From a virus, in IMG/VR virus record IMGVR_UViG_3300042469_000158, positions 1-62,709 of that record: a stretch of DNA of 62,709 bases. One strand, 5' to 3'. Both the position numbers and the translations under genes were made by a program. Shown here piece by piece: positions 15,571-40,815 of the stretch (positions within the stretch are counted from its first letter, which is position 1; the number at the start of each line of letters is the position of its first letter). The notes below the pieces were generated by a model, which had not been told where the DNA came from, did not search any database, and worked only from the letters and a program-made list of their open reading frames with translations.

Positions 15571-16770
15571 ATGGCAGTAACAAATTTTTCCCCCTTGCTT
15601 GGTTTGGCACTGCCTACCACAGGGGATCTATCGGGCACATGGGGCACTACAGTTAATGACTCTATTACAGGGTTAATTGATTCCGCTGTTGCGGGAACTA
15701 CCACTCTTAGTGCTGATGCTGATGTAACACTCTCCACTACAAATGGCGCGGCTAATCAAGCGCGTAACGCGGTCATTCTGTGGACAGCCAGTAATGGCGG
15801 AACTACCCGCAATATTACGGCACCTGCACAATCTAAAGCCTACGTAGTTATCAATGCAGGTACTGGCTCTGTTGTGATTCGGGGTTCCGGCCCTACAACG
15901 GGTGTTACGGTAGTTTCTGGATACAAAGTATTAGTAGCTTGGAACGGTTCTGACTTTGTAAAAGTCGCATCAAGCGTTGTAAACTTAGCTTCAGAGGTGA
16001 CGGGTACATTACCGATTGCTAATGGCGGTACGGGAACTACGTCAACAACTTTTACCAATCTAACTACCAACGTCACGGGCACACTGCCTATTGCCAACGG
16101 AGGTACAGGAACAACCTCAACTACGTTTGCTGACCTGACAACAAACGTTACTGGACTCTTGCCTCTTGCAAATGGCGGCACAGGCACCGCCACCCCGGCT
16201 TTGGTGCAGGGCAGCAATATAACCATCACGGGTTCTTGGCCCAATCAAACCATTGCTGCTGCTGGCGCAGCACAAGTTTATCCCGGCGTGGGTATAGCAA
16301 ACTCTACAGGTTCTGCATGGGGGACTTCGTATACAACCACAGGTACGGGAACGGTTGTTGCTTTGGCAACAAGTCCAACTCTTGTAACTCCTGTACTTGG
16401 TACACCTTCAAGTGGAACATTGTCTTCTTGCACCGTAGACGGCACTAACGCTGTTGGGTATAAAGCTATTCCTCAGTCTGGCTCTGCTAAAACAACAAGC
16501 TACACCCTTGCTACAGGGGATGTTGGTGAGTTTATTGAAGTTGGCGCAAGCGGGTCAATCGTAGTCCCCAACTCAACTTTTGCCGCCGGAGATGCAGTTG
16601 TAATTTTTAACAACACCTCGGGCGCAATTACACTGACCATGTCAATTACCACCGCGTATATTGGCGGCACTGATGCAGATAAAGCAACTATTTCTTTAGC
16701 AACTCGCGGCGTGTGTAATGTGTTGTTTATCAGCGGCACAGTTTGCGTTGTAACAGGAAACGTATCGTGA
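15571..16770 (+). CDS. Tail fibre protein
   Basis: This 399-residue protein starts with NFSPLLGLALPTTGDLSGTWGTTVNDSI, a common phage tail-fibre N-terminus. Two and a half copies of a 25-residue unit (VTGTLPIANGGTGTTSTTF...) lie at about residues 145-215. A C-terminal beta domain ends GDAVVIFNNTSGAITLTMS...CVVTGNVS. NGGTGTTS repeats are typical of trimeric fibre shafts. It should attach to the virion by the N-terminus and contact the host surface. The last 4 bases overlap the next start (GTGA). Confidence 0.85.
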   Translation: MAVTNFSPLLGLALPTTGDLSGTWGTTVNDSITGLIDSAVAGTTTLSADADVTLSTTNGAANQARNAVILWTASNGGTTRNITAPAQSKAYVVINAGTGSVVIRGSGPTTGVTVVSGYKVLVAWNGSDFVKVASSVVNLASEVTGTLPIANGGTGTTSTTFTNLTTNVTGTLPIANGGTGTTSTTFADLTTNVTGLLPLANGGTGTATPALVQGSNITITGSWPNQTIAAAGAAQVYPGVGIANSTGSAWGTSYTTTGTGTVVALATSPTLVTPVLGTPSSGTLSSCTVDGTNAVGYKAIPQSGSAKTTSYTLATGDVGEFIEVGASGSIVVPNSTFAAGDAVVIFNNTSGAITLTMSITTAYIGGTDADKATISLATRGVCNVLFISGTVCVVTGNVS

Positions 16771-18455
16771 GCGGAATAATGCTTGTTTCTGTGGGGAACT
16801 CCTATGGGAGTGCCCCCGTAAATACTGTGGCTCCGGCAGTTACGGGAACAGCTACTGTTGGTTCTACGCTCACAACTACAAATGGCACATGGACAGGCTC
16901 ACCAGCACCAACATTCACATATCAATGGTTTAGAAGTCCTAGCACCTCAATTAGTGGCGCAACTTCGTCAACCTATGTGCTGGTTATAGGTGATCGTGGA
17001 TTTGGTATTTTTTGCCGAGTAACAGCTACTAATTCCGTTGCACCATCCGGGGTTACGGCTGATTCCAATACCACAGCAACAGTGACATCAGTCCCAGACG
17101 CACCTACTATTGGCACGGCAGCTTCCACAGGTGCTACAACTGCAACCGTTGCATTTACTCAGCCAGCAAACAATGGTGGGTCTACAATTACTTCTTACAC
17201 TGCTACAAGTTCGCCCGGCGGTATTACAGGAACTTTGAACCAAGCAGGGTCTGGAACAATTACAGTTACTGGGTTGTCTCCTTCCACTTCCTACACCTTT
17301 ACCGTCACGGCAACCAATGCAGTTGGTACAAGTGCGGCAAGTGCTGCTAGTAATAGCATCACAACGGATGTTGCGCGGCAGTTGTGGGTTTCGGGTAGAA
17401 ACAACTTTGGTCAGTTAGGTCAAGGCGATACCACAGACCTCTCATCCCCCACTCAAGTTGGCTCATTAACCAACTGGTCTGTGACGGATGGTGGAGAGCG
17501 ATTCACACTAGCTGTCAAGACAGATGGTACTCTTTGGTCTTGGGGCCGAGGGCAAACAGGTCAGTTGGGTTTAGGCAACACTACAGACTATTCCAGCCCT
17601 AAACAAGTAGGAGCACTAACTGGTTGGTTAAAAGTTAGTGCCGGGTACGGTTTTTCTCTAGCCACTAAGACAAACGGTACTCTTTGGTCTTGGGGTCAGA
17701 ACAGCGTTGGTCAGTTAGGTCAAAACAACCTTACTTACTTATCCAGCCCCGTGCAAGTTGGCGCATTAACTACTTGGGCTGAAATAGCTGCAGCCCCCGG
17801 CGGCAACTCTTCAATGGGTGTTAGCACCAGCGGAACGCTCTTTACATGGGGTCGGAACTACTTTGGTCAATTAGGCCTAGGTAATACTACAGATCGCTCA
17901 TCTCCTACTCAAGTTGGCGCATTGACTGCTTGGTCAAAAATTAGCATGGGCAGTAATATGAGTGCGGCAATTAAAACAGATGGCACTCTTTGGACTTGGG
18001 GCTATAACGGATTTGGTAAATTAGGTCTAGGGGATGCAAGCATATATCCAGTAAATGCCAACCGATCATCCCCCACTCAAGTTGGAGCTTTAACAAATTG
18101 GAGCGAGATTTCTTGTAATGGTGGTAGTAATATGATAGCCGTTAAGACAGACGGTACTCTTTGGTCTTGGGGGGCAAATAGTTATGGGGCTTTAGGTTTA
18201 GGCAACACTACAAATTATTCTTCTCCAAAACAAGTAGGCGCATTGACTGCTTGGAGTAAGGTCGCAGGCAATAATCACTTCTCAATAGCCCTAAAAACAG
18301 ACGGTACACTTTGGACATGGGGCCGAAACAACTTTGGTCAATTGGGCCAAGGTAATACTACTAATCGTTCAAGTCCCGTACAGGTTGGCGCATTGACTAC
18401 TTGGCTGACTATTTCTGCGGGATACAACTGGTTACTGGTTACTAAATCAACGTAA
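16767..18455 (+). CDS. Ig-like/FN3/RCC1-propeller tail or adhesion protein
   Basis: The GTG at 16767 overlaps the fibre stop (GTGA) with AGGA upstream; a TTG at 16743 is also in frame. The 562-residue product has an Ig-like domain (about residues 10-105), a fibronectin type III domain (about 108-200) and then seven copies of an RCC1-type repeat. Each repeat is close to LWSWGxNxxGQLGxGNTTxxSSPxQVGALTxW...KTDGT. Seven units make one complete seven-bladed propeller. It lies directly after the fibre gene, so receptor binding is likely. Confidence 0.85.
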   Translation: MSGIMLVSVGNSYGSAPVNTVAPAVTGTATVGSTLTTTNGTWTGSPAPTFTYQWFRSPSTSISGATSSTYVLVIGDRGFGIFCRVTATNSVAPSGVTADSNTTATVTSVPDAPTIGTAASTGATTATVAFTQPANNGGSTITSYTATSSPGGITGTLNQAGSGTITVTGLSPSTSYTFTVTATNAVGTSAASAASNSITTDVARQLWVSGRNNFGQLGQGDTTDLSSPTQVGSLTNWSVTDGGERFTLAVKTDGTLWSWGRGQTGQLGLGNTTDYSSPKQVGALTGWLKVSAGYGFSLATKTNGTLWSWGQNSVGQLGQNNLTYLSSPVQVGALTTWAEIAAAPGGNSSMGVSTSGTLFTWGRNYFGQLGLGNTTDRSSPTQVGALTAWSKISMGSNMSAAIKTDGTLWTWGYNGFGKLGLGDASIYPVNANRSSPTQVGALTNWSEISCNGGSNMIAVKTDGTLWSWGANSYGALGLGNTTNYSSPKQVGALTAWSKVAGNNHFSIALKTDGTLWTWGRNNFGQLGQGNTTNRSSPVQVGALTTWLTISAGYNWLLVTKST

Positions 18456-20224
18456 TGAAAAAACAATTAGCATTTCTCTCTGGTATTCCACGCAGCGGCA
18501 GTACGGTGTTGGCGGCTATCCTTAACCAAAACCCAATGACCCACGTTTCAACAACGTCTGGTCTGCTTCATGCGTTGGATGGCTTGGCTAATACATGGCA
18601 TTCTGCTGCTTTACTAAACGATAACGACCCTGAAAAAAATAAGCTGGCTCAAACGATGCGTGGTACGATTGATGCGTTTTATGAGAACGAGACTGCTCCA
18701 ATTATCATTGACAAATCCCGTGGTTGGCCTGCCGCGCAGATTATGTCTGCTATGTCCCAAGTCCTTGGAAAACCGCCTAAGATTATTGCTACGGTACGTT
18801 CAGTTCCTGACTGTGCGGCCAGTTTTTTACGTATTGCAAAGCCTGAAAATCTTGATGAATTCATGCACTCTGGTCAACTAATGAACCATCTCAAGGCCGC
18901 TTATATTTTGCTTCAAAGCGGCTATAGTTCTGCGCCTGAAAACTTTTTATTTGTTGAGTACGAAGATTTATTAGCAGACCCTAAAGCGCAACTGGCGCGT
19001 ATTCATACTTTTCTTGAGTTGCCTGATTTCTCCTACGACTTTGACAACATTGACGGCTCTACGGTAGCTGAAGAAGACGAGCAACTGCACGGTTATGCTG
19101 GCCTGCACGACGTCAAACCAAAGCTAGAAGCCCAACACAAACAAGACCCAAAAGACTTACTCAAATCTTATTACTCAGAGTTTTGTCAGCCTGAGTTCTG
19201 GCTAGATACCCCCCGAACAATGCCCGATATTCAGGCATTAGATTTACAGCTTGCAGCGTCCACAATAGGTGATTTTCAAGAAGGCTGGCGCTTGGCCCAG
19301 CAACTAGAAGCGGAAGAACCCAACAACCATCGCGCAGCCTACAATCGTGGCTGGTACTACCTGCGTCAAGGGCAGATTCAAAAAGGCTACCAATTGATGG
19401 ACAGGGGCCGACTAGCAAATGTGTTTGGTAACTCACGCCCCAGCGTACCTACCCAACAGTGGGACGGCAAGACCAAGGGCATTGTGTTGCTCAATCTTGA
19501 AGGTGGTTTGGGTGATCAGATTCATCAAGTGCGCTACGCCAAGTACATTGCCGCACGAGGATGTAAGGTCATTGTTGCGTGTTCGAAGCAACTAGCATCA
19601 CTGTTTGTTGATGTTGAAGGTGTGTCATCAGTCATTCAGCATGAGGCAGTGTTTGGTATTTATCACGACTTCTGGGTTGCTGGTATGTCGGCTGTAGTTC
19701 CCCTTGGCTTTGAATTGGCGGATCTCTCTGGCGCTCCGTATATAACTAAGCCTGTGACTATCAAAAGCCGCAAGAAGCAAATTGGTTTACGCTGGCAGGG
19801 CAACAGCAAGTTTGAACATGAGCACCACAAGAAGTTCCCCTATGATTTAATGTTTGAGGCTGTAAAGGACGCTGACGCTGAGTTTATTTCCCTACAACGG
19901 GATGAGGGTGTAGATGCTTGCCCAGCTTGGGTAAAACAAGTCCCCTTACAGTCATGGGAAGACACTCGCACTGCCGTGGCAAGTTGTGACTTGGTAATCA
20001 GCTCCTGTACCTCGGTAGGCCACTTAGCAGCCGCTATGGGCATTCAAACGTGGACAATTACACCCATCATGCCTTACTTCTTGTACGCACTTGAAGGCGA
20101 GGACACACCATACTATGATTCAATGAAACTGATTCGCCAAGAAGTGTTTGGGGATTGGCAAGCCCCGTTTAACCGTATCAAAGACCGTTTGGGCCATAAA
20201 CCCGCATTAAGGAGCGTTGCATGA
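18455..20224 (+). CDS. Sulfotransferase-TPR-glycosyltransferase (GT9-like) fusion
   Basis: This is a 589-residue multidomain enzyme. Residues 1-240 resemble a PAPS-dependent sulfotransferase: the 5'-phosphosulfate loop SGIPRSGSTVL at 9-19, and KIIATVRSVPDCAASF as the 3'-phosphate region. Residues about 250-320 are TPR-like (DFQEGWRLAQQLEAEEPNNHRAAYNRGWYY). The C-terminal 260 residues have a GLGDQIHQVRYAKYI start and a CTSVGHLAAAMG motif, as in GT9/heptosyltransferase-like domains. No signal peptide. It begins an accessory cassette that makes activated heptose, so both sulfation and sugar transfer to a surface glycan or fibre are plausible. Confidence 0.78.
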   Translation: MKKQLAFLSGIPRSGSTVLAAILNQNPMTHVSTTSGLLHALDGLANTWHSAALLNDNDPEKNKLAQTMRGTIDAFYENETAPIIIDKSRGWPAAQIMSAMSQVLGKPPKIIATVRSVPDCAASFLRIAKPENLDEFMHSGQLMNHLKAAYILLQSGYSSAPENFLFVEYEDLLADPKAQLARIHTFLELPDFSYDFDNIDGSTVAEEDEQLHGYAGLHDVKPKLEAQHKQDPKDLLKSYYSEFCQPEFWLDTPRTMPDIQALDLQLAASTIGDFQEGWRLAQQLEAEEPNNHRAAYNRGWYYLRQGQIQKGYQLMDRGRLANVFGNSRPSVPTQQWDGKTKGIVLLNLEGGLGDQIHQVRYAKYIAARGCKVIVACSKQLASLFVDVEGVSSVIQHEAVFGIYHDFWVAGMSAVVPLGFELADLSGAPYITKPVTIKSRKKQIGLRWQGNSKFEHEHHKKFPYDLMFEAVKDADAEFISLQRDEGVDACPAWVKQVPLQSWEDTRTAVASCDLVISSCTSVGHLAAAMGIQTWTITPIMPYFLYALEGEDTPYYDSMKLIRQEVFGDWQAPFNRIKDRLGHKPALRSVA

Positions 20225-20613
20225 GTAATAATTTATTTGTTCGAATTCAAAACAATCAAGTTACCGACTGCTGGGATACGCCGCCTCCTGCTGGTCAAGA
20301 TGGTTGGAAATCAGCCGTTGAAGTTCGTCCCGCCATTCAAGCTGGTCGTCAAGGCTATACGGCCCATCGCTTTGATATCAACACTGACCCTGTTCAAATC
20401 ATCTGGGACACATACGAAATCTCTGTTGATGACCGCAAAGCAAACATGAAAGCCAACGCCAACATGAGTTTTCAGATGGAGATGCAACGTCAGGCGCAGA
20501 ATCCTGCAAACTATGATCCCGCTGCTCTTACCGCTGTACAAGCCGCCGTTGCCCCCAAGATTGCCGCTATCGAAGCCGCTACAACTCACGACGAACTGGA
20601 CGCACTATTATGA
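20221..20613 (+). CDS. Hypothetical fibre-region protein
   Basis: This 130-residue product has a beta-strand N-terminus (NLFVRIQNNQVTDCWDTPPPAGQDGWKSAVEV) and a helical C-terminus (ALTAVQAAVAPKIAAIEAATTHDELDALL). This resembles tail-fibre assembly or chaperone-like proteins encoded next to fibres. It overlaps the preceding and following genes by 4 bases each (ATGA). It has no enzymatic motif and is the one apparently structural gene inside the sugar cassette. Confidence 0.68.
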   Translation: MSNNLFVRIQNNQVTDCWDTPPPAGQDGWKSAVEVRPAIQAGRQGYTAHRFDINTDPVQIIWDTYEISVDDRKANMKANANMSFQMEMQRQAQNPANYDPAALTAVQAAVAPKIAAIEAATTHDELDALL

Positions 20614-21395
20614 AAAGAATCTTAGTCATGGGTTTGCCCGGTGCGGGTAAGACTACTTTAGCCCAACAAATCCTTGAGCACTTGCAGAACGAACGCAAGA
20701 CAGTCATGTGGCTAAACGCTGATGATGTTCGCAAGAAATTCAACGACTGGGACTTCTCCCACGAAGGCCGCATTCGTCAGAGCTTGCGGATGCGTGAGCT
20801 TGCTGACAGCTACGATGTGGATTTTGTGATCTGCGACTTTGTTGCCCCCCTTGTGGAGATGCGTAACAACTTTAAAGCTGATTGGACTATCTGGGTGGAC
20901 ACCATTGACCAAGGTCGGTTTGAGGATACTAACAAGGTGTTCATTCCTCCCAAGGAATATGACTTCAGGATCACGGAGCAGAAGTCTGAGAAGTGGGGTG
21001 AGTTTATTGCCGCACACATCTTGGATAACCGCCGCCGCCCTGTGTTTGACTGGCAAAAAGAAACAGTTCAAATGCTTGGCAGATGGCAACCTTGGCATGC
21101 AGGACACCGTAAGCTGTTTGAAAGAGCACTGGCGAAAACTGGTCAGGTTGTAATTCAGATTAGAGATTGTCAGGGCTGGAACGGCTCTAACCCGTTTGCC
21201 GCCAATCAGGTCAAAGAGTTTATTAGCCGCGACTTAGACACTTTGTATCAAGGTCAGTACGAGGTTCAATTGGTTCCTAACATTGTGAACATTACCTACG
21301 GGCGTGATGTTGGATACAAGATTGAGCAGGAATCTTTTGATGATGCTACCCACGCTATCTCGGCAACCAAGATACGCAAAGAGATGGGTGTGTGA
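20610..21395 (+). CDS. APS-kinase-like/nucleotidyltransferase fusion
   Basis: This is a 261-residue two-domain protein. The N-terminal half has a P-loop (GLPGAGKTT, residues 8-16) and LNADDVRKKFNDWDFSHEGR, recalling the CysC segment after its P-loop. This suggests conversion of APS to PAPS. The C-terminal half has HAGH (163-166) within GRWQPWHAGH and ends ISATKIRKEM, the signature of cytidylyl/adenylyltransferases of the HxGH superfamily. Together with the upstream sulfotransferase it could supply PAPS. The nucleotidyltransferase substrate is unknown. An alternative for the N-terminal half is another small-molecule kinase. Confidence 0.7.
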   Translation: MKRILVMGLPGAGKTTLAQQILEHLQNERKTVMWLNADDVRKKFNDWDFSHEGRIRQSLRMRELADSYDVDFVICDFVAPLVEMRNNFKADWTIWVDTIDQGRFEDTNKVFIPPKEYDFRITEQKSEKWGEFIAAHILDNRRRPVFDWQKETVQMLGRWQPWHAGHRKLFERALAKTGQVVIQIRDCQGWNGSNPFAANQVKEFISRDLDTLYQGQYEVQLVPNIVNITYGRDVGYKIEQESFDDATHAISATKIRKEMGV

Positions 21396-21826
21396 TTGTC
21401 TTTACCAACGGGTGCTTTGATGTGCTCCACCGTGGGCACGTTGAGTATTTGGAGAAATCCAAAGCCCTTGGCAAGTGGTTGATTGTTGGTTTAAACTCAG
21501 ATGCGTCTGTACGGGAACTCAAACCCGGCAGACCTATCAATTCCCAAGATGACCGCATGGCTGTCCTTATGGCGCTTAGATGCGTAGATGAAGTTATTAT
21601 TTTTGACGAGCCAACACCGCTTGAGCTAATCCAACGGATTAGTCCGGACATCATTACAAAGGGTGGAGACTACAGCCCTAATCAAGTTGTAGGGGCAAGA
21701 ATTGTCAAACAAACAATTATCATTCCATTCCTAGACGGATATTCATCTACAAGGATTATCAATGAGGCTCAAGGGAATAGTAGACAAAGGCTGGGGTTCG
21801 GAGCTAATCTGGGCGACCAACGATAA
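21392..21826 (+). CDS. rfaE2: D-glycero-beta-D-manno-heptose 1-phosphate adenylyltransferase
   Basis: This 144-residue protein corresponds to the C-terminal domain of HldE. It has FTNGCFDVLHRGHVEYLE with the HRGH nucleotide-binding motif, LNSDASVRELK, RPINSQDDRMAVLMALRCVDEVIIFDEPTPLELI and PDIITKGGDY. It joins heptose-1-phosphate with ATP to give ADP-D,D-heptose. The GTG start overlaps the preceding stop (GTGA). The C-terminus runs on about 20 residues beyond the usual end and overlaps the cupin gene by 65 bases. The related kinase is encoded separately at 22398. Confidence 0.88.
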   Translation: MIVFTNGCFDVLHRGHVEYLEKSKALGKWLIVGLNSDASVRELKPGRPINSQDDRMAVLMALRCVDEVIIFDEPTPLELIQRISPDIITKGGDYSPNQVVGARIVKQTIIIPFLDGYSSTRIINEAQGNSRQRLGFGANLGDQR

Positions 21827-22115
21827 ATACTGCGGGAAGCTGATGACCTTTCGCAAGGGTGCTAAGTTCTCCATGCACTTTCATGCTGAGAAAGACGAGA
21901 CTTGGCTAGTCCAAGGTGGTCTGTTCAAGGTCATCTGGATTGACACCAAAGATGCCAGCCGACATGAAGAAATACTAAACGTAGGCGATACATGGCACAA
22001 CCCGCCATTCATGCCTCACCAGCTAATCTGCCTAGTATCAGGGGCTATTATGGAAGTCTCAACTGCTGATTCTGTAGAAGACAACTATCGTGTGGAGCCG
22101 GGGGATAGCCAGTGA
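21762..22115 (+). CDS. Cupin, sugar-phosphate isomerase-like
   Basis: This 117-residue single-domain cupin has KFSMHFHAEKDETWLVQGG, giving the metal-binding HxH...E pattern. A second motif contains PPFMPHQL. This pattern is typical of mannose-6-phosphate isomerase-like and sugar-epimerase-related cupins. It starts inside rfaE2 without a clear ribosome-binding site, so translational coupling is likely. In the cassette it could isomerise a sugar phosphate or stabilise the product. The substrate cannot be read from the sequence. Confidence 0.78.
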   Translation: MRLKGIVDKGWGSELIWATNDKYCGKLMTFRKGAKFSMHFHAEKDETWLVQGGLFKVIWIDTKDASRHEEILNVGDTWHNPPFMPHQLICLVSGAIMEVSTADSVEDNYRVEPGDSQ

Positions 22116-22420
22116 AGTACATGGTGGACATTGACGGCACGATCTGCAACAGTCCCTCCAGCGACTACACGCAGTCCACCCCGTACATGGATCGCATCGA
22201 GCGCATTAACCGCTTGATGGATGATGGCCATGAAGTCCACTACTGGACAGCCAGAGGCGGCAACAGCGGCAAGAACTGGTCTGACTTCACGGTTGGCCAA
22301 CTGGCAAGCTGGGGCTGCAAGTACACCACGGTGAATTTCAAGAAGCCCGTATACGATATTTGGATAGACGACAAAGCTGTCAACTCGGAGACTTACTTTG
22401 AAAATCATAGCCATCGGTGA
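22112..22420 (+). CDS. HAD-like phosphatase
   Basis: This 102-residue protein starts with VDIDGTIC (HAD motif I, DxDGT). It has HYWTARGGNSG (motif II type) and ends with KPVYDIWIDDKA (motif IV DD). It is shorter than GmhB (about 190 residues) and belongs with the compact phage and capsule-locus HAD proteins. In context it is the best candidate for removing the phosphate at C7 of heptose-1,7-bisphosphate, although its family is usually annotated only as hydrolase. The GTG start overlaps the cupin stop. Confidence 0.8.
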   Translation: MKYMVDIDGTICNSPSSDYTQSTPYMDRIERINRLMDDGHEVHYWTARGGNSGKNWSDFTVGQLASWGCKYTTVNFKKPVYDIWIDDKAVNSETYFENHSHR

Positions 22421-23111
22421 CGGTTGCATCGACGAATACCGCTACGGGGAAATTTGGAGAGTAAATCCGGAGTCGTCTGCGCCCCTGTTGAACTTTGACC
22501 AGAGCGAGGAGAGGATGGGCATGGCATTCAATGTGGCCCAGAACCTGAAAGCGTTTGGCGCTTTGGTTGACCTCTTTGTTCCTGACAGGCTATCCCGCAA
22601 GATCAGGTACATCGACAGGCGCACGGGTGAGCACTTGCTTCGTGTGGATCATGACGTAGAGGCTAAAGAGTTTGACTTTGACTTAGATTACCGTGGCATT
22701 GACGCAATTGTAATCTCTGACTACAACAAGGGTTTCGTAAGTGATAAGACCATTCTGAACTTGCGCCAGCAGTTCAAAGGCCCGATTTACATGGACACCA
22801 AAAAAAAGAACCTTGCGGACTTCCCTGACATCTACATTAAGATCAACGAGCGGGAGCTGTTTGAGTCCACATCCCTACCCGCTGGCGACAGGCTTATCGT
22901 AACTCGCGGCTCCAAGGGGTGCGGTTACATGGACAAGATGTACCCAGCCAAGCCTATTGAGGTGTTAGATGTCTGTGGGGCTGGTGATGTGTTCCTTGCC
23001 GCCATGGTGGTCAAGCACCTAGAGACTGGCGACATGAGCAAGGCCCTGCCATTTGCCAACGAAAAAGCGGCAATATCCTGCCAGAGAATTGGGGCGGTAT
23101 GCGTATCCTGA
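22398..23111 (+). CDS. rfaE1: D-glycero-beta-D-manno-heptose 7-phosphate kinase
   Basis: This 237-residue PfkB-family kinase corresponds to the N-terminal domain of HldE. It has GDGCIDEYRYGEIWRVNPESSAP, GMAFNVAQNL, VISDYNKGF, IKINERELF and the catalytic DVCGAGDVF loop near the C-terminus. It phosphorylates heptose-7-phosphate at C1. It is about 80 residues shorter than the usual domain, mainly in the lid region between residues 55 and 75. The TTG start overlaps the HAD gene by 23 bases. The key Asp of GAGD is intact. Confidence 0.85.
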   Translation: MKIIAIGDGCIDEYRYGEIWRVNPESSAPLLNFDQSEERMGMAFNVAQNLKAFGALVDLFVPDRLSRKIRYIDRRTGEHLLRVDHDVEAKEFDFDLDYRGIDAIVISDYNKGFVSDKTILNLRQQFKGPIYMDTKKKNLADFPDIYIKINERELFESTSLPAGDRLIVTRGSKGCGYMDKMYPAKPIEVLDVCGAGDVFLAAMVVKHLETGDMSKALPFANEKAAISCQRIGAVCVS

Positions 23112-23854
23112 TTACTGGGCACAAGGGCTTCATTGGCCAGAACATGGTCAAGGCCCTGTCAGAGCACGACCTCAACCTGTGTGAGTGGGGCGACCAGTAT
23201 TCCCTCTATGGAATAGATAGGGTCATCCACCTTGGGGCTATATCGGATACTCGTTGTCAGGATTGGCCTGCTCTACGCAAGCAGAACGTGGGCTTCTCAA
23301 TTATCCTGATTGAGCAGTGCCAGAAGTACGGCATCCCCATCCAGATCGCCTCCTCGGCTTCGGTCTATGGCCCGGAAAACACCACTTTCAACGAGGATGA
23401 CCCGGTAGCGCCAGCCAATCTGTACGCCGAGTCCAAGGCACTGGTGGAGCAATACTTTCGGGAGATGACGCCAACCTCGCCTGTGCAAATATTCAGGTAC
23501 TTTAACGTGTACGGCCCTCATGAGGATCACAAAGGCGATCAAGCCTCACCGTTTCACAAGTTTCGGGAGCAGGCCAAGGCCGGAACAATCAAAATTTTTG
23601 AGGGTAGTGCCGGGTTTAAACGTGACTTTATCCATGTAGATTGGGTTATTGACGTTCACAAAAAGTTTTTTAAAGTAAGTGAGTCAGGCATTTGGAATGT
23701 TGGAACTGGAAAAACTTTGTCCTTTTTGGACGTTGCACACTTGGCAGCAAATGAATTTTCAGCGAAAATAGAAACTATTCCAATGCCCATTTTGGGCGGG
23801 TATCAAATGTATACGTGTGCTGACATGACCAAACTAAACAGGATACTAAAGTGA
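23099..23854 (+). CDS. hldD: ADP-L-glycero-D-manno-heptose 6-epimerase
   Basis: This 251-residue short-chain dehydrogenase/epimerase has the NAD(P)-binding GHKGFIG at residues 7-13, catalytic SSASVYG and YAESK. HldD-specific segments are present: RYFNVYGPHEDHKG, FEGSAGFKRDFIHVD and YQMYTCADMTKL. It converts ADP-D,D-heptose to ADP-L,D-heptose, the donor for LPS core. It is shorter than the usual 310 residues by the C-terminal tail and internal loops. The ATG overlaps the kinase gene by 13 bases. It closes the sugar cassette. Confidence 0.9.
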   Translation: MRILITGHKGFIGQNMVKALSEHDLNLCEWGDQYSLYGIDRVIHLGAISDTRCQDWPALRKQNVGFSIILIEQCQKYGIPIQIASSASVYGPENTTFNEDDPVAPANLYAESKALVEQYFREMTPTSPVQIFRYFNVYGPHEDHKGDQASPFHKFREQAKAGTIKIFEGSAGFKRDFIHVDWVIDVHKKFFKVSESGIWNVGTGKTLSFLDVAHLAANEFSAKIETIPMPILGGYQMYTCADMTKLNRILK

Positions 23855-34884: not shown

Positions 34885-37800
34885 ATGATCATTACCCTGC
34901 CTAAGATTGGCCCCGTACGGTTTGATGACAATATCTCTACCGAGGAATTAAATAAGCAGGTTGGTCTTCTTGCCAAGCAATACGACTTTAAGATTCCAAA
35001 GCGAGATGTAGGGATTGGCACCCTCTTGAAAGAGGGCTTCATGCGTGGCATGGGGGAAACAGGTATCGCTTTGGGGGACACGCTCCCCGCTATGGGTGCA
35101 TCTGCGCTTGGCTTTGATGAGTACGCACAGCGTCAGATGGCTGAAGCCGATGCCTCACGCCAAGCGTTACAAGCCAAGTACCCTACGCAGTTCAAGTCAT
35201 ACACTGAAGTTGAAAGCCCGTATGAGGGTGCACAGTTTATTGCTGAAACTTTAGGCGAACTTGGCCCTACTGCACTGACTGCAATGATTCCCGGTATAGG
35301 CGCTGGGGCAGTGGGTAGTAGGATTGCCGCTCGTGGTGCTATGGGTGCCGCTTTGGAAGCTGGCCCACTATCTATAGCTGGCCGTGCCGCCGCAGAGACT
35401 GCCGCCAAAAAGGCTGGTGAAGTAGCAGGTAAACGCGCAATGTATGGTGGTGTGTACCTCGGCTCATTTGCACAGAATGCACCCGAAGTATTTGAAAGCA
35501 TCTATCAAGAAACTGACAAAATGGAGCCGGGTATTGCCGCGCTTGCTGGTGGCCTGTCTTCTGTCTTGGACGCTATTGTCCCCGGCAAATTGTTAGGTGA
35601 ACTTGGTGGTTACGGCAAGATGAAGGTCATCGAGAAGATGGCCAAAGAATCTGGTGCCGCACCAAAGGTGTGGAAGTACATTGGCAAAGAAGCCGCTAAG
35701 ACCGCAGGTACTGAAGGTTTGACTGAGGCAGCGCAAGAGTCTATCAATGCCGCCGCAGAACAAGTTGCAGGTAGCACTAAAGATATGTTCGGCCCTGAAA
35801 ACATTCAGCGGTTCAAAGAATCGTTTGTCAAAGGTGCAATCGGTGGTGGTGTGTTTGGCACTGTCAGTGGTACAAGCCAAGGCTTAACTGCCCGCAAAGA
35901 ATTTAAAAATACCAAAGAAGCTGAAGAAGCACTCAAAGCGCAAATGGATGCCGAGGCTAAAGCCGGTACTCTTACGCCAGAGAAGCAAGCTGAGTACGAC
36001 ATTGCACTTGAGAACGCACGTAAGCAACGTGAGTCTGAACTTGGTGAAACGTTTGCAGGTCTATCTGACTTCAATCAACGTGAAGAGAATCTCAAGGCTC
36101 TTCAAGCCCGCATGGATCAGATGCGTCCTAACTCTGAGGCATACACTGACCTGCAAGAGCAGATTAGAGTGGCGCAAGAAGAAACTGAAAAAGCCCGAAA
36201 AGCACAAGAAGAGATTGATGCGGCTCGGGTTGCAGGTTCGGCATTTGCTGATGCCGCTGAAACTAAGTCAGGATTACTTACTTCTAAAACTCGCGTTACA
36301 CAGCCGGTTACTGAAGAGACTTTGGCACTGCTTAACATTCCGGCACGTACCAATCTTGGGCAATCACTTTTAGGGTTGGACTTGAGCACCGTGCGGGGGG
36401 CTAAACAGTTTGTAAATATTACAGAAGACCCCGCTACGGTTGGGTCAGTGAACATAGATGAAGACGCATATCTTGGTCTTCGTTCTGAGATTGATAGTGT
36501 TCTTGCAAAGGCAAAACCCAAAGGAGCACCCGATGCTACAAGACCTGACGCCGCCCCAAGTGGAGGAAGCCCTAGCGTGGTTAGCGAACCCGCTAGTATT
36601 AAAACTGCCACAACCGATGAAACAACTGTCGGAGGTGGAGATGTTCTTACTAAGCCGGATGTTGGAGACGCTACTGGACGAGAAGGACAACAGCCCACTG
36701 CATTAACTGAAGCGCCTAATACAGTAGATACAACTGCAAAAATTACCCCCGCTAATCAGGCTATCAATACTGCGCCACAAGTTACACCACAAGTTACACC
36801 ACAAGGAACCACAACTGATGGCACTACGACCACTCAAACCCAGCAAACAGAAGCGCAAAGACAAGCGGCAACAACTGCCCCACGAGGCATCTTAGCCCGT
36901 CCTGATTTATCTTCAGAACTGCCCACTATCCAACAGAAGTTGGGGGTGGCAAAGGCTAAGTTAAATGAGGTCGCTAAAGATGCCCGTGCATATTTTGGTA
37001 AGGTAAACCCTGAACTTGCACTCGATGCAATTGCCAACGACTTGGTGTATCAGCCACAGCCCTACCGTAACTCAAAGATGAAAGCCTTTGAGAAGAGTCC
37101 ACAAGGCCCAGAGCCTATGTTTGGTGAAAAGGCCGAAGCCGCATTCTTCCAAGGTCAAGGCGGTATCCACGCCAAGAATGCCGAGGCATGGGCACGTGCT
37201 AACTTGTCTCCCGAGTCTGTTGCATTCTTAGATCAGAAGATTGCCCAATACACAAAAGAAGCCGAGAGTTCTAGCAAGACACGTGTAAAACAGCAAAAAC
37301 AACAAGACATTCGCAAAGCCACTAAAGAGCAAATCAAAAAAGAAAACCAAGCTCCCAAACGTGCGTCAATGCAAAAGATCATTGATGATGTGTACTTTGG
37401 TGACTTAGATGATAACGCTGACACCGACATCAGCGGTTTGCTTGCTGATGCAGACCTTGCACAATTACAAACGCAGGCTCACCCGGTGGTGCTCCAACAG
37501 CTTGCCAACAATAACTTGACAGGTGCTTTACAGGCGCTGGCGGACAGCGGTTCATCTAAGACAGCAGAACTTTTTGCAGAGTCTTTGTCCAAACAAGTTG
37601 GTAACGTCAACCTAGTATATGGCGCTGAGAAGTCCATGTACGACCCAAAGACCAACACAGTGTATCTGCGTGATGGTGCTACTGAGTATGAGATTCTGCA
37701 TGAGTCTTCACATGCCACCATGTCCCACACTTTGGACAACCCATCGCACCCTGTCACCCGTCAGGTCACAACCCTCTTCAATCAAATGAAGAAAGGCACT

Positions 37801-40800
37801 GAAGGAACTTATGGTGCGCAAGATATACAAGAGTTCGCTGCGGAAGCGTGGAGTAATGATGCGTTTCGCAACCGCTTAAAAGAATTCAAGCCCACAGGTG
37901 AAAAACTCACTGGTTGGGAGCGTTTGGTTAATTCTGTACGTCAGTTGCTCCGCTTGCCCCCTAAAACCGAAACTGCGTTGGATGCGATTGACCGCATGCT
38001 GAATGACATCATCAGCCCACCCCCTGCCGAGCGCATGGGTGAAACTATGTATGCGCAATCCCTGCATAACCCTAACGTTGTGCAAGAGATGTTCACAAAG
38101 ATGGGCGACACCATCCGCAAGCAACCTCTTATGAACAAAGAAGGTGCTGTTGGGTTTTGGAAGGGTGCGGAGAAGATTGGCACGGTTGGCCGTCAGTTGA
38201 TGTACAAGGCGTTGAACTTGTCTGCCTTGGGTGAAATCTCTAAAAACTATTTGGGTGAGACGGGTGCCCGTTTTGCCAATACGGTAGAAGAGATGGCGGG
38301 TTATCAAGAGAAACTGCTTGAAGCCATGTCCCCCCTGCACAAGCGGTTGACTGAATTTAGGCAAACTCCTGAGTATCAGGCGTGGTCTACTTTGGTTCAT
38401 GACGCTACTACTGTTGATGTGCGCCCCTATAAAGAAGCTAAAAAACTTTATGACGGCAGTCCTGAGAAGGAAGCCGAGTATAAAAAACTTCATGCACGGT
38501 TTGAGAAACTTACATCAAATGGCCAGAAGTTATACCGCGATCTATTTGCCACCTACAAAGCTCTTGACACAGAGTTCTTAAAGTCGCTGGAGCGCAACAT
38601 CGAGGCTACGGTGGGTGATAAAGCCAAGTCTGCATCTGCTTACCAAAAGATTTTGCAAGAACTCGCTAGTGTACGTATTGACCACTATGCGCCTTTGTTC
38701 CGCGAAGGTCAGTTCTGGTTGCAGTACAACGTTGGTAATGATGTCAAGAAACAAGCCTTTGAGACTGAGGCTGACCGTGACTTTGCGCGTAAGCAATTAG
38801 AAGCCAGTGGTGCCACAAAGTTTGATGCCTACTCACGTGCTGATCAAATAACGGCCAAGAACGTGCCATCCGGTACTATGCTTGCCGACATCATGAAAAT
38901 CATGAAGGACAGTGGTGCCGGGGAAGATGCTATCAATGACTTGATACAACTTGTTGTTAAGGCTATGCCCGAAGCCAGCATTTTGAAGAGCCGTCAAAAG
39001 CGTACTGGTATTGGTGGTTACATCGACAATGCCGCTTATGTGTTTGACCATGTAAGTAGTAACACTGCACGTCAGTTGGCCCGCATGCAGTATGGCCCTG
39101 AATTGCAACGTCTTATAAAAGACATGACTGAAACGGCTAACCAAGCCCGTGGTGATGCTAATACATTTGGTATTGAACTTATTAACGAGTTTGAAGGTCG
39201 CCGTAAGTTTGCAATGAATCCTACTGTGGCGGGTTGGGCACAGTTTGCAAGCTCTTCTGCGTTCTACTACAACCTTGCCGGTAACGTATCCTCTGCATTG
39301 GTCAACACTTTGCAGACACCGCTGATTGTCTTCCCGCAACTGGGTGGCGAGTATGGGTTTAAGAATGCAGGGGAGGCATTGAAAAACGCCATGAAACTCT
39401 ACACGAGTAGTGGCCTCACAAAGAATGTTACTGAGTTGACTGGCGATGTCAGCAGTCAGAAGGCCATGACCTCTATTGAGAACTGGGTCAACAAAGGTAA
39501 GTACACCCAATACAAAGGTCTTATTGAGGCAATGAAAGACCGTGGCATGCTGGCTACATCCACTGCACGTGACGCACTACGTTCTGAGAACGATAATTCA
39601 TCGGGTTATGGCAGCACAAACAAACTAGCACGTGTCACTACGTTGGTAGGCTCTTTCATGTTTCACCATGCCGAGCGCATGAACCGTGAGATTACAGCCG
39701 TTGCCGCTTTTGATTTGGAAATGGCCAAGCTCAAGAACTCTAAGTTGAGCGATGCTGAGAAGCAAGCCAAGGCAATCGACAAGGCTATGGCACTTGTGGA
39801 ATACACACACGGTGCGGGCAGTACGCTGTCTGGCCCCAGCCTTGGTCAGAGTGACGTAGGAAAAGTTTTGATGGTGTTTAAGCGTTTTGCGTTCAGCATG
39901 TACTACATGTTGTTCGATACCATGAGACGCTCACTCCCTACCAAAGGTGCAACAGGCGAACAGCTTGAAGCAATCAAAGCCGCACGTAAACAACTTGCAG
40001 GTGTATACGGCATGTCCGCGCTCTTTGCAGGTGTGAAAGGTATGCCTCTGTATTGGATTGCAGAAACCGCTTACAACATGTTTCAAGAAGACGATGACGA
40101 TGACTTTGATACGGTCATGCGTGGGTTCCTTGGTGACTTCTTTTTTAAAGGGCCGGTCAACTATCTTACCAATCTGAGTATTGCGGATCGTGTGGGTTGG
40201 ACTGACTTGTTGTGGCGCGAACAAAAGGGTAGCAAGGCTGACGCAAGTGCCTTGTCCCAATTCATGGAAACGCTTTTGGGTGCGCCCTACTCTATTGCTG
40301 ACAGTATCTTGCGTGGTAAAGACCTGATTGCTGAAGGCCAGTATGAGCGTGGTATTGAAGCTATGTTGCCTATTGGTATCCGCAACATCTTGAAGGGTGG
40401 TCGTTATGCAATCGAAGGCGCTAACACTCTGCGTGGTGATGCGGTTGGAGATGTGAACGGATACAACGCCGCTATGCAAGTGCTTGGCTTTGCCCCTGCT
40501 GACTTGATGAAGCAGTACGAAGAAAATGCGTACATGACCGAGAAGGGTAAGGCCATCAAATCCATCGAGAAGAACGCACTGAAGAAGTACTATGCGGCTA
40601 TGCGTGAGGGTGATATCGACGGCATGATGGATGCACGTGAGAAGTTGTTTGAGCTTGGTGCTAAGTACCCTGACCTAAAGATCAGTGAAGAGACAATCAC
40701 TCAGTCGGTGAAGGCACGTGAGCGTATCTCAAACGAAATGTACCAAGGTGTAACGCTCGACCGTAAACTGGCTCCCTACTTGAAGCAAGCCGCCGCAGAA

Positions 40801-40815
40801 GCATACGGTGATTAA
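34885..40815 (+). CDS. Giant internal virion protein with putative metallopeptidase motif
   Basis: This 1976-residue protein is the last + strand gene. Residues about 90-330 hold hydrophobic Gly/Ala-rich helices (LTAMIPGIGAGAVG) that may insert in membranes during ejection. Residues about 550-680 are low-complexity Thr/Pro/Gln. Around residue 939 lies HESSH, followed by EFAAEAW about 45 residues later, matching a zinc peptidase HExxH plus downstream glutamate. The C-terminal 900 residues are helical. T7 gp16 is a functional analogue. Similar multi-domain proteins have been called polyvalent. Confidence 0.75.
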   Translation: MIITLPKIGPVRFDDNISTEELNKQVGLLAKQYDFKIPKRDVGIGTLLKEGFMRGMGETGIALGDTLPAMGASALGFDEYAQRQMAEADASRQALQAKYPTQFKSYTEVESPYEGAQFIAETLGELGPTALTAMIPGIGAGAVGSRIAARGAMGAALEAGPLSIAGRAAAETAAKKAGEVAGKRAMYGGVYLGSFAQNAPEVFESIYQETDKMEPGIAALAGGLSSVLDAIVPGKLLGELGGYGKMKVIEKMAKESGAAPKVWKYIGKEAAKTAGTEGLTEAAQESINAAAEQVAGSTKDMFGPENIQRFKESFVKGAIGGGVFGTVSGTSQGLTARKEFKNTKEAEEALKAQMDAEAKAGTLTPEKQAEYDIALENARKQRESELGETFAGLSDFNQREENLKALQARMDQMRPNSEAYTDLQEQIRVAQEETEKARKAQEEIDAARVAGSAFADAAETKSGLLTSKTRVTQPVTEETLALLNIPARTNLGQSLLGLDLSTVRGAKQFVNITEDPATVGSVNIDEDAYLGLRSEIDSVLAKAKPKGAPDATRPDAAPSGGSPSVVSEPASIKTATTDETTVGGGDVLTKPDVGDATGREGQQPTALTEAPNTVDTTAKITPANQAINTAPQVTPQVTPQGTTTDGTTTTQTQQTEAQRQAATTAPRGILARPDLSSELPTIQQKLGVAKAKLNEVAKDARAYFGKVNPELALDAIANDLVYQPQPYRNSKMKAFEKSPQGPEPMFGEKAEAAFFQGQGGIHAKNAEAWARANLSPESVAFLDQKIAQYTKEAESSSKTRVKQQKQQDIRKATKEQIKKENQAPKRASMQKIIDDVYFGDLDDNADTDISGLLADADLAQLQTQAHPVVLQQLANNNLTGALQALADSGSSKTAELFAESLSKQVGNVNLVYGAEKSMYDPKTNTVYLRDGATEYEILHESSHATMSHTLDNPSHPVTRQVTTLFNQMKKGTEGTYGAQDIQEFAAEAWSNDAFRNRLKEFKPTGEKLTGWERLVNSVRQLLRLPPKTETALDAIDRMLNDIISPPPAERMGETMYAQSLHNPNVVQEMFTKMGDTIRKQPLMNKEGAVGFWKGAEKIGTVGRQLMYKALNLSALGEISKNYLGETGARFANTVEEMAGYQEKLLEAMSPLHKRLTEFRQTPEYQAWSTLVHDATTVDVRPYKEAKKLYDGSPEKEAEYKKLHARFEKLTSNGQKLYRDLFATYKALDTEFLKSLERNIEATVGDKAKSASAYQKILQELASVRIDHYAPLFREGQFWLQYNVGNDVKKQAFETEADRDFARKQLEASGATKFDAYSRADQITAKNVPSGTMLADIMKIMKDSGAGEDAINDLIQLVVKAMPEASILKSRQKRTGIGGYIDNAAYVFDHVSSNTARQLARMQYGPELQRLIKDMTETANQARGDANTFGIELINEFEGRRKFAMNPTVAGWAQFASSSAFYYNLAGNVSSALVNTLQTPLIVFPQLGGEYGFKNAGEALKNAMKLYTSSGLTKNVTELTGDVSSQKAMTSIENWVNKGKYTQYKGLIEAMKDRGMLATSTARDALRSENDNSSGYGSTNKLARVTTLVGSFMFHHAERMNREITAVAAFDLEMAKLKNSKLSDAEKQAKAIDKAMALVEYTHGAGSTLSGPSLGQSDVGKVLMVFKRFAFSMYYMLFDTMRRSLPTKGATGEQLEAIKAARKQLAGVYGMSALFAGVKGMPLYWIAETAYNMFQEDDDDDFDTVMRGFLGDFFFKGPVNYLTNLSIADRVGWTDLLWREQKGSKADASALSQFMETLLGAPYSIADSILRGKDLIAEGQYERGIEAMLPIGIRNILKGGRYAIEGANTLRGDAVGDVNGYNAAMQVLGFAPADLMKQYEENAYMTEKGKAIKSIEKNALKKYYAAMREGDIDGMMDAREKLFELGAKYPDLKISEETITQSVKARERISNEMYQGVTLDRKLAPYLKQAAAEAYGD

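Follow-up and report, generated by a model that had tools for sequence, protein, structure and literature searches.

A phage-borne cassette for ADP-heptose synthesis with a probable cupin isomerase and a candidate fusion transferase

The IMG/VR virus record IMGVR_UViG_3300042469_000158, analysed here over its full 62,709 bases and referred to as the window, contains at 16743-23854 a cassette of nine + strand genes, most of which overlap the start of the next gene. The cassette very probably endows the phage with an ADP-heptose pathway. The open reading frames (ORFs) named in an initial annotation of this region are present, overlapping and on the + strand; a cupin gene and a 130-aa ORF were missing from it. 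The cassette is composed of the following genes (LPS, lipopolysaccharide; GT, glycosyltransferase; APS, adenosine 5′-phosphosulfate; PAPS, 3′-phosphoadenosine 5′-phosphosulfate, here and below).

16743-18455, + strand: fn3 and RCC1 beta-propeller repeat protein (Pfam WD40_RLD/RCC1 and fn3), a probable fibre and candidate acceptor.
18455-20224, + strand: putative sulfotransferase-TPR-GT-B/GT9-like heptosyltransferase fusion (Pfam Sulfotransfer_3, AlphaFold model, PDB fold matches).
20221-20613, + strand: conserved 130-aa protein with no family match, downstream of the fibre and fusion genes; relatives are 53-74 % identical.
20610-21395, + strand: APS-kinase-like P-loop kinase (about residues 1-145) plus HxGH nucleotidyltransferase (about 150-261) (PF01583, PF01467).
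21392-21826, + strand: predicted heptose-1-phosphate adenylyltransferase HldE2 (TIGR02199, HxGH motif).
21762-22115, + strand: cupin, proposed sedoheptulose-7-phosphate isomerase in the place of GmhA (invariant residues, isomerase-slot test, kinase fusions, fold).
22112-22420, + strand: small capless HAD phosphatase, EcbF/BcbF-like, proposed heptose-1,7-bisphosphate 7-phosphatase (profiles, motifs).
22398-23111, + strand: shortened PfkB kinase of 237 aa, predicted to act on heptose-7-phosphate (TIGR02198, alignment).
23099-23854, + strand: shortened HldD-like protein of 251 aa, predicted ADP-heptose 6-epimerase (TIGR02197, PDB 1eq2).

Relatives of the kinase gene occur on 37 viral contigs, with 69-82 % identity where the match exceeds a fragment, and the gene order is repeated wherever the contig extends far enough. 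A DNA-level search against phages gave no match for the window, and its terminase is 54-58 % identical to the terminases of DSL-LC04, 023Pt_psg01 and pelagiphages HTVC023P/HTVC027P.

Profile searches place the adenylyltransferase, kinase and epimerase in heptose families, as the initial annotation had proposed, and by these matches all three are heptose-family proteins with intact catalytic motifs. Specifically, HldE2 matches rfaE_dom_II (TIGR02199, E-value 2.8e-50) with 169.9 bits, narrowly under the curated cut-off of 181.5, and has the HxGH site (NGCFDVLHRGH at 6); its segment FLDGYSST fits the heptose adenylyltransferase motif (F/L)xxGxSTT (PMC11461863) except for SST in place of STT, and the promiscuity arginine is absent. 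For both the kinase and the epimerase the best profile match is the heptose model. The kinase (TIGR02198 rfaE_dom_I, E-value 4.7e-31, 108 bits against a cut-off of 345, 237 versus 315 aa) keeps GAGD at 194, INERE (NxxE) at 149 and SDYNKG (SDYxKG) at 107; in the alignment (A7), about 40 residues are gone in one block, with smaller gaps elsewhere, and the columns invariant among heptose kinases are kept. Comparably short kinases occur in cyanophages, so the shortening is family-wide and not decay of the window genome. The epimerase (TIGR02197, E-value 8.1e-58, 196 bits, below the curated 274.6) aligns to PDB 1eq2 (2.1e-41) and keeps the catalytic Ser, YxxxK and the second Lys of HKG (TGHKGFIG, SSASVYG, YAESK, EDHKG). 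All three proteins are short or divergent, which explains why their scores stay under the cut-offs curated by NCBIfam.

The gene at 22112, described initially as a HAD-like phosphatase of the heptose route, is a HAD phosphatase, with DIDGT (DxDGT) at 6, WTARG at 45 and IDDKA near the C-terminus. A heptose-type GmhB is ruled out, since no GmhB-type HAD-IIIA (NF006506) match occurs in the window and the protein is EcbF/BcbF-like instead. Among 21 records of the window group (window included, several of them fragments), five carry the small HAD and none carries GmhB; the host would supply the phosphatase step in the phages lacking it. In addition, the 'phosphoheptose isomerase' entries of PHROG 1238 and of loci L039:6655-6999 (PSSM2_311) and L041:5676-5999 match small HAD phosphatases and no isomerase model, so that by sequence this name in PHROG 1238 and cyanophage RefSeq is a misleading annotation of a HAD phosphatase.

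GmhA (SIS domain PF13580) is absent from the window, as had been noted initially, and from its 37 relatives (many of them fragments) and five whole cyanophages. The accompanying suggestion that the host supplies heptose-7-phosphate is probably wrong: a cupin sits in the isomerase slot and is found in every window relative whose sequence extends that far, and because it very probably supplies the GmhA step, the host need not supply heptose-7-phosphate. At least 593 cupin loci are present in IMG/VR. In a cupin-selected sample of 77 viral loci, two of which repeat contigs already covered, HldE1 was found in 69, HldE2 in 66, HldD in 63, a GmhB-like gene in 22, a small HAD in eight and GmhA in none (tblastn and hidden Markov model searches). 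Of 80 GmhA-selected viral loci, 20 carry both HldE1 and HldE2, and the cupin is missing from all 20; in two further loci, L206 and L238, cupin and GmhA lie about 5 kb apart.

A third sample, selected by the kinase and hence neutral to isomerase type, comprises 43 loci with HldE1 and HldE2, of which 28 have the cupin only, seven GmhA only, eight neither (several on short contigs) and none both; the probability of zero overlap is 2e-4 if the loci are independent, a figure that ignores relatedness. The kinase tree requires three switches between cupin and GmhA, of which supported branches force at least two, so the alternation is not one lineage's effect. Locus L249 shows what, from its gene order, is a swap of the two within the same cassette type: a short kinase (53 % identical to a query kinase), HAD, HldE2 and a 70-aa ORF are followed by a full-length GmhA. 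A contig from a metagenome-assembled genome (L061, 7461-12346) contains two heptose modules, each with its own isomerase, one of PfkB/HldE2/cupin and the other of a GHMP heptose kinase, a GmhA-like SIS protein and a HAD-nucleotidyltransferase. By gene content, then, the cupin appears to take the isomerase slot of heptose cassettes in place of GmhA.

The same association is seen in cells. In the Parcubacterium L065 a GT9 heptosyltransferase gene is followed by the cupin, HldE1, an HldE2-GmhB fusion and HldD in that order, with no PF13580 (SIS_2) protein found in this possibly incomplete genome, and in L049 the cupin is paired with GmhB. In three Patescibacteria (G355, G242, G220) the cupin is fused ahead of a full heptose-7-phosphate kinase (TIGR02198, 316-351 bits), and in a fourth (G272) behind it (340 bits); an HldE2 match directly adjoins the fusion in three of the four, and three of the four genomes yielded no PF13580 protein. 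These frames of 477-570 aa had been candidates for GMP-PMI fusions and turned out to be cupin-heptose kinase fusions, which parallel the isomerase/kinase/nucleotidyltransferase fusion proteins mentioned in PMC11573728.

The cupin residues H39, H41, E46, H86 and E98-x-S-T are invariant across 41 sequences. Outside its own family, the cupin profile matches type II phosphomannose isomerase (PMI)-like proteins of Patescibacteria; its matches in solved structures include D-lyxose and L-ribose isomerases as well as generic bicupins. D-lyxose and L-ribose isomerases act on manno-type sugars, and D-lyxose isomerase has been solved with D-mannose. These two enzymes and type II PMI share with the window cupin the metal-site pattern, K-x-E and an E-x-S-T-like tail, and catalyse the aldose-ketose isomerisation of manno-type sugars that we propose for the cupin; unlike them, the window cupin forms its own family, lies among heptose genes and scores under the PF01050 (type II PMI) cut-off (20.5 versus 23.6 bits). 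PMI interconverts a ketose phosphate and a manno aldose phosphate, and GmhA performs the same reaction on a substrate one carbon longer, so the assignment requires only a longer substrate. Judged from sequence and gene context, the cupin is very probably a sedoheptulose-7-phosphate isomerase. A full-text literature search, which covered journals other than subscription journals, did not turn up any publication that connects a cupin with heptose and GmhA.

Alternatively, GmhA could simply be missing, with the host giving heptose-7-phosphate and the cupin acting as a mannose-6-phosphate isomerase, an epimerase or a dioxygenase. The cupin fold is functionally broad, and PHROGs and RefSeq label the protein 'cysteine dioxygenase'; such a role is nonetheless unlikely, given the alternation with GmhA without a single double locus in the neutral sample, the fusions to heptose-7-phosphate kinase in both orders and the absence from the cassette of any GDP-mannose pathway gene recognised by profile searches. 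The cysteine dioxygenase name itself finds no such family match in Pfam or NCBIfam, and in cyanophages the cupin beside the HAD is named either 'cysteine dioxygenase' or 'putative nucleotidyltransferase'. A type II PMI described in phage S-SCSM1 (PMC9602691) was also considered as a counterpart; S-SCSM1 is not among the matches to the window cupin, so its enzyme is probably a different protein.

Several observations weigh against a cupin-based heptose pathway. Quercetinase and oxalate decarboxylase cupins head the PDB matches of the cupin model (predicted local distance difference test score, pLDDT, 95), with sugar isomerases close behind and D-lyxose isomerase at a similar E-value. HldD was not detected in 14 of the 77 cupin loci, some of them on short contigs, and the independent switches between cupin and GmhA are few. 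G355 has, besides its fusion, a weak SIS match (4.5e-12). Solitary cupins of the heptose type lie by apparent housekeeping genes in the Patescibacteria L056, L057 and L060, and some homologues are found in phage-like contigs without heptose genes, so the link between cupin and heptose genes is not universal. Finally, the kinase and epimerase of the window are shortened, the latter lacking part of the NAD-binding half of HldD.

The likely user of ADP-heptose is the fusion protein at 18455, in which a sulfotransferase (about residues 1-250), TPR repeats (about 260-320) and a GT-B/GT9-like domain (about 335-580) can be distinguished. The sulfotransferase part of the initial annotation is borne out by Pfam (Sulfotransfer_3, PF13469, 4.4e-15, 57 bits against a cut-off of 27) and by the PAPS-binding loops PRSGST at 12 and VRSVPDCAAS (VR...S) at 114; the GT9-like half has no Pfam or NCBIfam match and is recognised by fold. 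In particular, the AlphaFold model (mean pLDDT 77.7) matches TPST (7.7e-7), WaaF (4.8e-5), TibC (8.9e-5) and WaaC (2.2e-4) in the PDB, the sulfotransferase part resembling human and tick tyrosylprotein sulfotransferases and the GT part also OGT/SPY. By its model, the GT half resembles the GT-B heptosyltransferase fold of TibC and bacterial autotransporter heptosyltransferases, which use ADP-heptose to modify proteins (PMC4358343); it differs in being fused to TPR and sulfotransferase domains, and its likeness to TibC is one of fold, not of sequence-level membership.

Sulfation belongs to the window's subgroup and not to the heptose module. The coupling of the two described in the initial annotation is present in this subgroup, and no sulfotransferase, APS-kinase-like or GT partner was seen in 95 of 106 other cupin-heptose loci, some of which are short. 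Five other cupin-heptose loci (L130, L146, L149, L150, L168) have the GT half without the sulfotransferase, and L134 has one gene each for sulfotransferase, GT and kinase, which indicates that sulfation is an addition in the window group. No Sulfotransfer_3 protein was found in the five complete cyanophages carrying the heptose genes, and in the marine virus AG-345-O18 a sulfotransferase occurs together with the five heptose genes.

As to the acceptor, the chances of the adjacent RCC1 fibre proteins and of LPS are about even, with the fibre proteins slightly ahead. Nearly every relative whose sequence is long enough has RCC1 genes around the fusion gene, and a GT homologue of Synechococcus phage BUCT-ZZ01 adjoins tail-fibre and BNR-repeat genes; this arrangement weakly favours a fibre target. 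The pathway and transferase might instead remodel host LPS or another surface glycan, blocking superinfection or changing the receptor, a reading with a substantial but lesser chance of being right. WaaF and WaaC are among the fold matches, and heptose genes of cyanophages and pelagiphages are found within or close to clusters containing LPS-type glycosyltransferases (see also PMC7029224, PMC7824862). Against LPS stand the single recognised glycosyltransferase in the cassette, the position of its gene among fibre genes with an overlap to an RCC1 gene, the closest resemblance of the sulfotransferase half to protein (tyrosine) sulfotransferases and the likeness of the GT half to the protein heptosyltransferase TibC. 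The fold matches do not separate LPS from protein heptosyltransferases.

The gene at 20610 had been called APS-kinase-like. Its N-terminus does match APS_kinase (PF01583, 5.8e-11, 43.1 versus 21.1 bits), a match that falls short of a proven APS kinase: the score against the equivalog TIGR00455 is 31.9 bits for a cut-off of 138.7, and NAD replaces the DGD motif of APS kinases. A second domain, an HxGH nucleotidyltransferase (PF01467, 22.6 versus 21), had been overlooked. The protein could make PAPS for the sulfotransferase, the two halves acting as APS kinase and ATP-sulfurylase-like enzyme, a role compatible with the heptose pathway and equally separable from it. Besides the Pfam match, the distribution of the kinase speaks for this role: outside the window group it is present in three of four heptose loci with this sulfotransferase (one, L108, being a window relative again), no heptose locus with enough flank carries it without the sulfotransferase, and in L033 the kinase and sulfotransferase genes form an overlapping pair. 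We nevertheless regard PAPS synthesis as doubtful. A mini PAPS synthase is not supported for the nucleotidyltransferase half, which scores with nicotinamide mononucleotide (NMN) adenylyltransferases and not with ATP sulfurylase; several relatives have a kinase-only version of 143-147 aa instead; the DGD motif is replaced; and of the homologues in Stenotrophomonas, Xanthomonas and Clavibacter phages (38-41 % identity), the one genome checked, Clavibacter phage 33, contains no Sulfotransfer_3 gene.

Relatives of the cassette vary in gene content. An extra small ORF (YHVRFNTKHNGSDLVWRIFENG...) lies between kinase and HldE2 in L003:6943-7275, L009:1340-1672 and L027:6651-6983, and a methyltransferase-like gene, absent from the window, lies upstream of the APS-kinase-like gene in L027:5415-5981, L008:6260-6841 and L030:3323-3889. 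Elsewhere in the window, a 1976-aa ORF (34885-40815) matches a DarB-like antirestriction PHROG with its C-terminal part (7.6e-76).

Taken together, we propose that the cupin (21762) would convert host sedoheptulose-7-phosphate to D-glycero-D-manno-heptose-7-phosphate, which the short PfkB kinase (22398) would phosphorylate at C1. The small HAD (22112), or a host enzyme where the phage lacks the HAD, would remove the C7 phosphate; HldE2 (21392) would then adenylylate the sugar and HldD (23099) epimerise it. The GT9/TibC-like half of the fusion would spend the ADP-heptose, and the sulfotransferase half would use PAPS, to which the 20610 kinase might contribute; a fibre or surface molecule would thereby receive both heptose and sulfate. 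Sequence shows the families, the intact motifs and the cupin/GmhA alternation, and we infer every enzymatic step, the cupin substrate and the acceptor. A phage-borne ADP-heptose factory with a cupin isomerase and a transferase is, as a whole, the probable reading; the joint claim that the cupin is a second, non-homologous isomerase, common in phages and also found in Patescibacteria, there sometimes fused to heptose-7-phosphate kinase, and that the fusion heptosylates and sulfates the phage's own fibres is a tentative one.

The heptose module itself is not new, and the initial view of it as such was too strong. Prochlorococcus phage P-SSM2 (PSSM2_309-313, T4-GC 304-308), S-CAM1, S-SM2 and Sf-CH8 encode the same HldE2, short PfkB kinase, HAD and cupin, the first three also the epimerase, in whole genomes that lack GmhA as the window does; in contrast to the window, they are T4-like cyanomyoviruses (35-46 % identity) without a Sulfotransfer_3 protein, and their HAD and cupin are annotated phosphoheptose isomerase and cysteine dioxygenase. 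Compared with the bacterial ADP-L,D-heptose pathway GmhA-HldE-GmhB-HldD, the kinase, adenylyltransferase and epimerase are homologous, whereas the cupin replaces SIS-fold GmhA, the phosphatase is EcbF/BcbF-like, and kinase and epimerase are shortened. A jumbo-phage review (PMC7824862) lists cupin isomerases, PfkB kinases, HIGH nucleotidyltransferases and epimerases in cyanophage surface-sugar clusters without naming heptose, and rfaE is reported in pelagimyophages (PMC7029224). According to two commentaries (PMC11573728, PMC11461863), Tang et al. (Science 2024) found viral heptose enzymes by homology to known types and showed activity in vitro; the commentaries report no viral phosphatase, whereas GmhB-like or small HAD genes occur among our 77 cupin loci (22 and eight), and neither commentary mentions a cupin isomerase. 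The isomerase role proposed for the cupin, the fusion enzyme and the reading of 'phosphoheptose isomerase' entries as HAD phosphatases are new here.

Should the cupin be the isomerase, an apparent missing step would be filled in hundreds of viral heptose cassettes and in some Patescibacteria. Searches keyed to GmhA would then miss most cupin cassettes, and most viral and some cellular heptose pathways would be scored incomplete. With the likely user of the sugar encoded by a single gene next to the fibre genes, the question of why phages make heptose would become directly testable.

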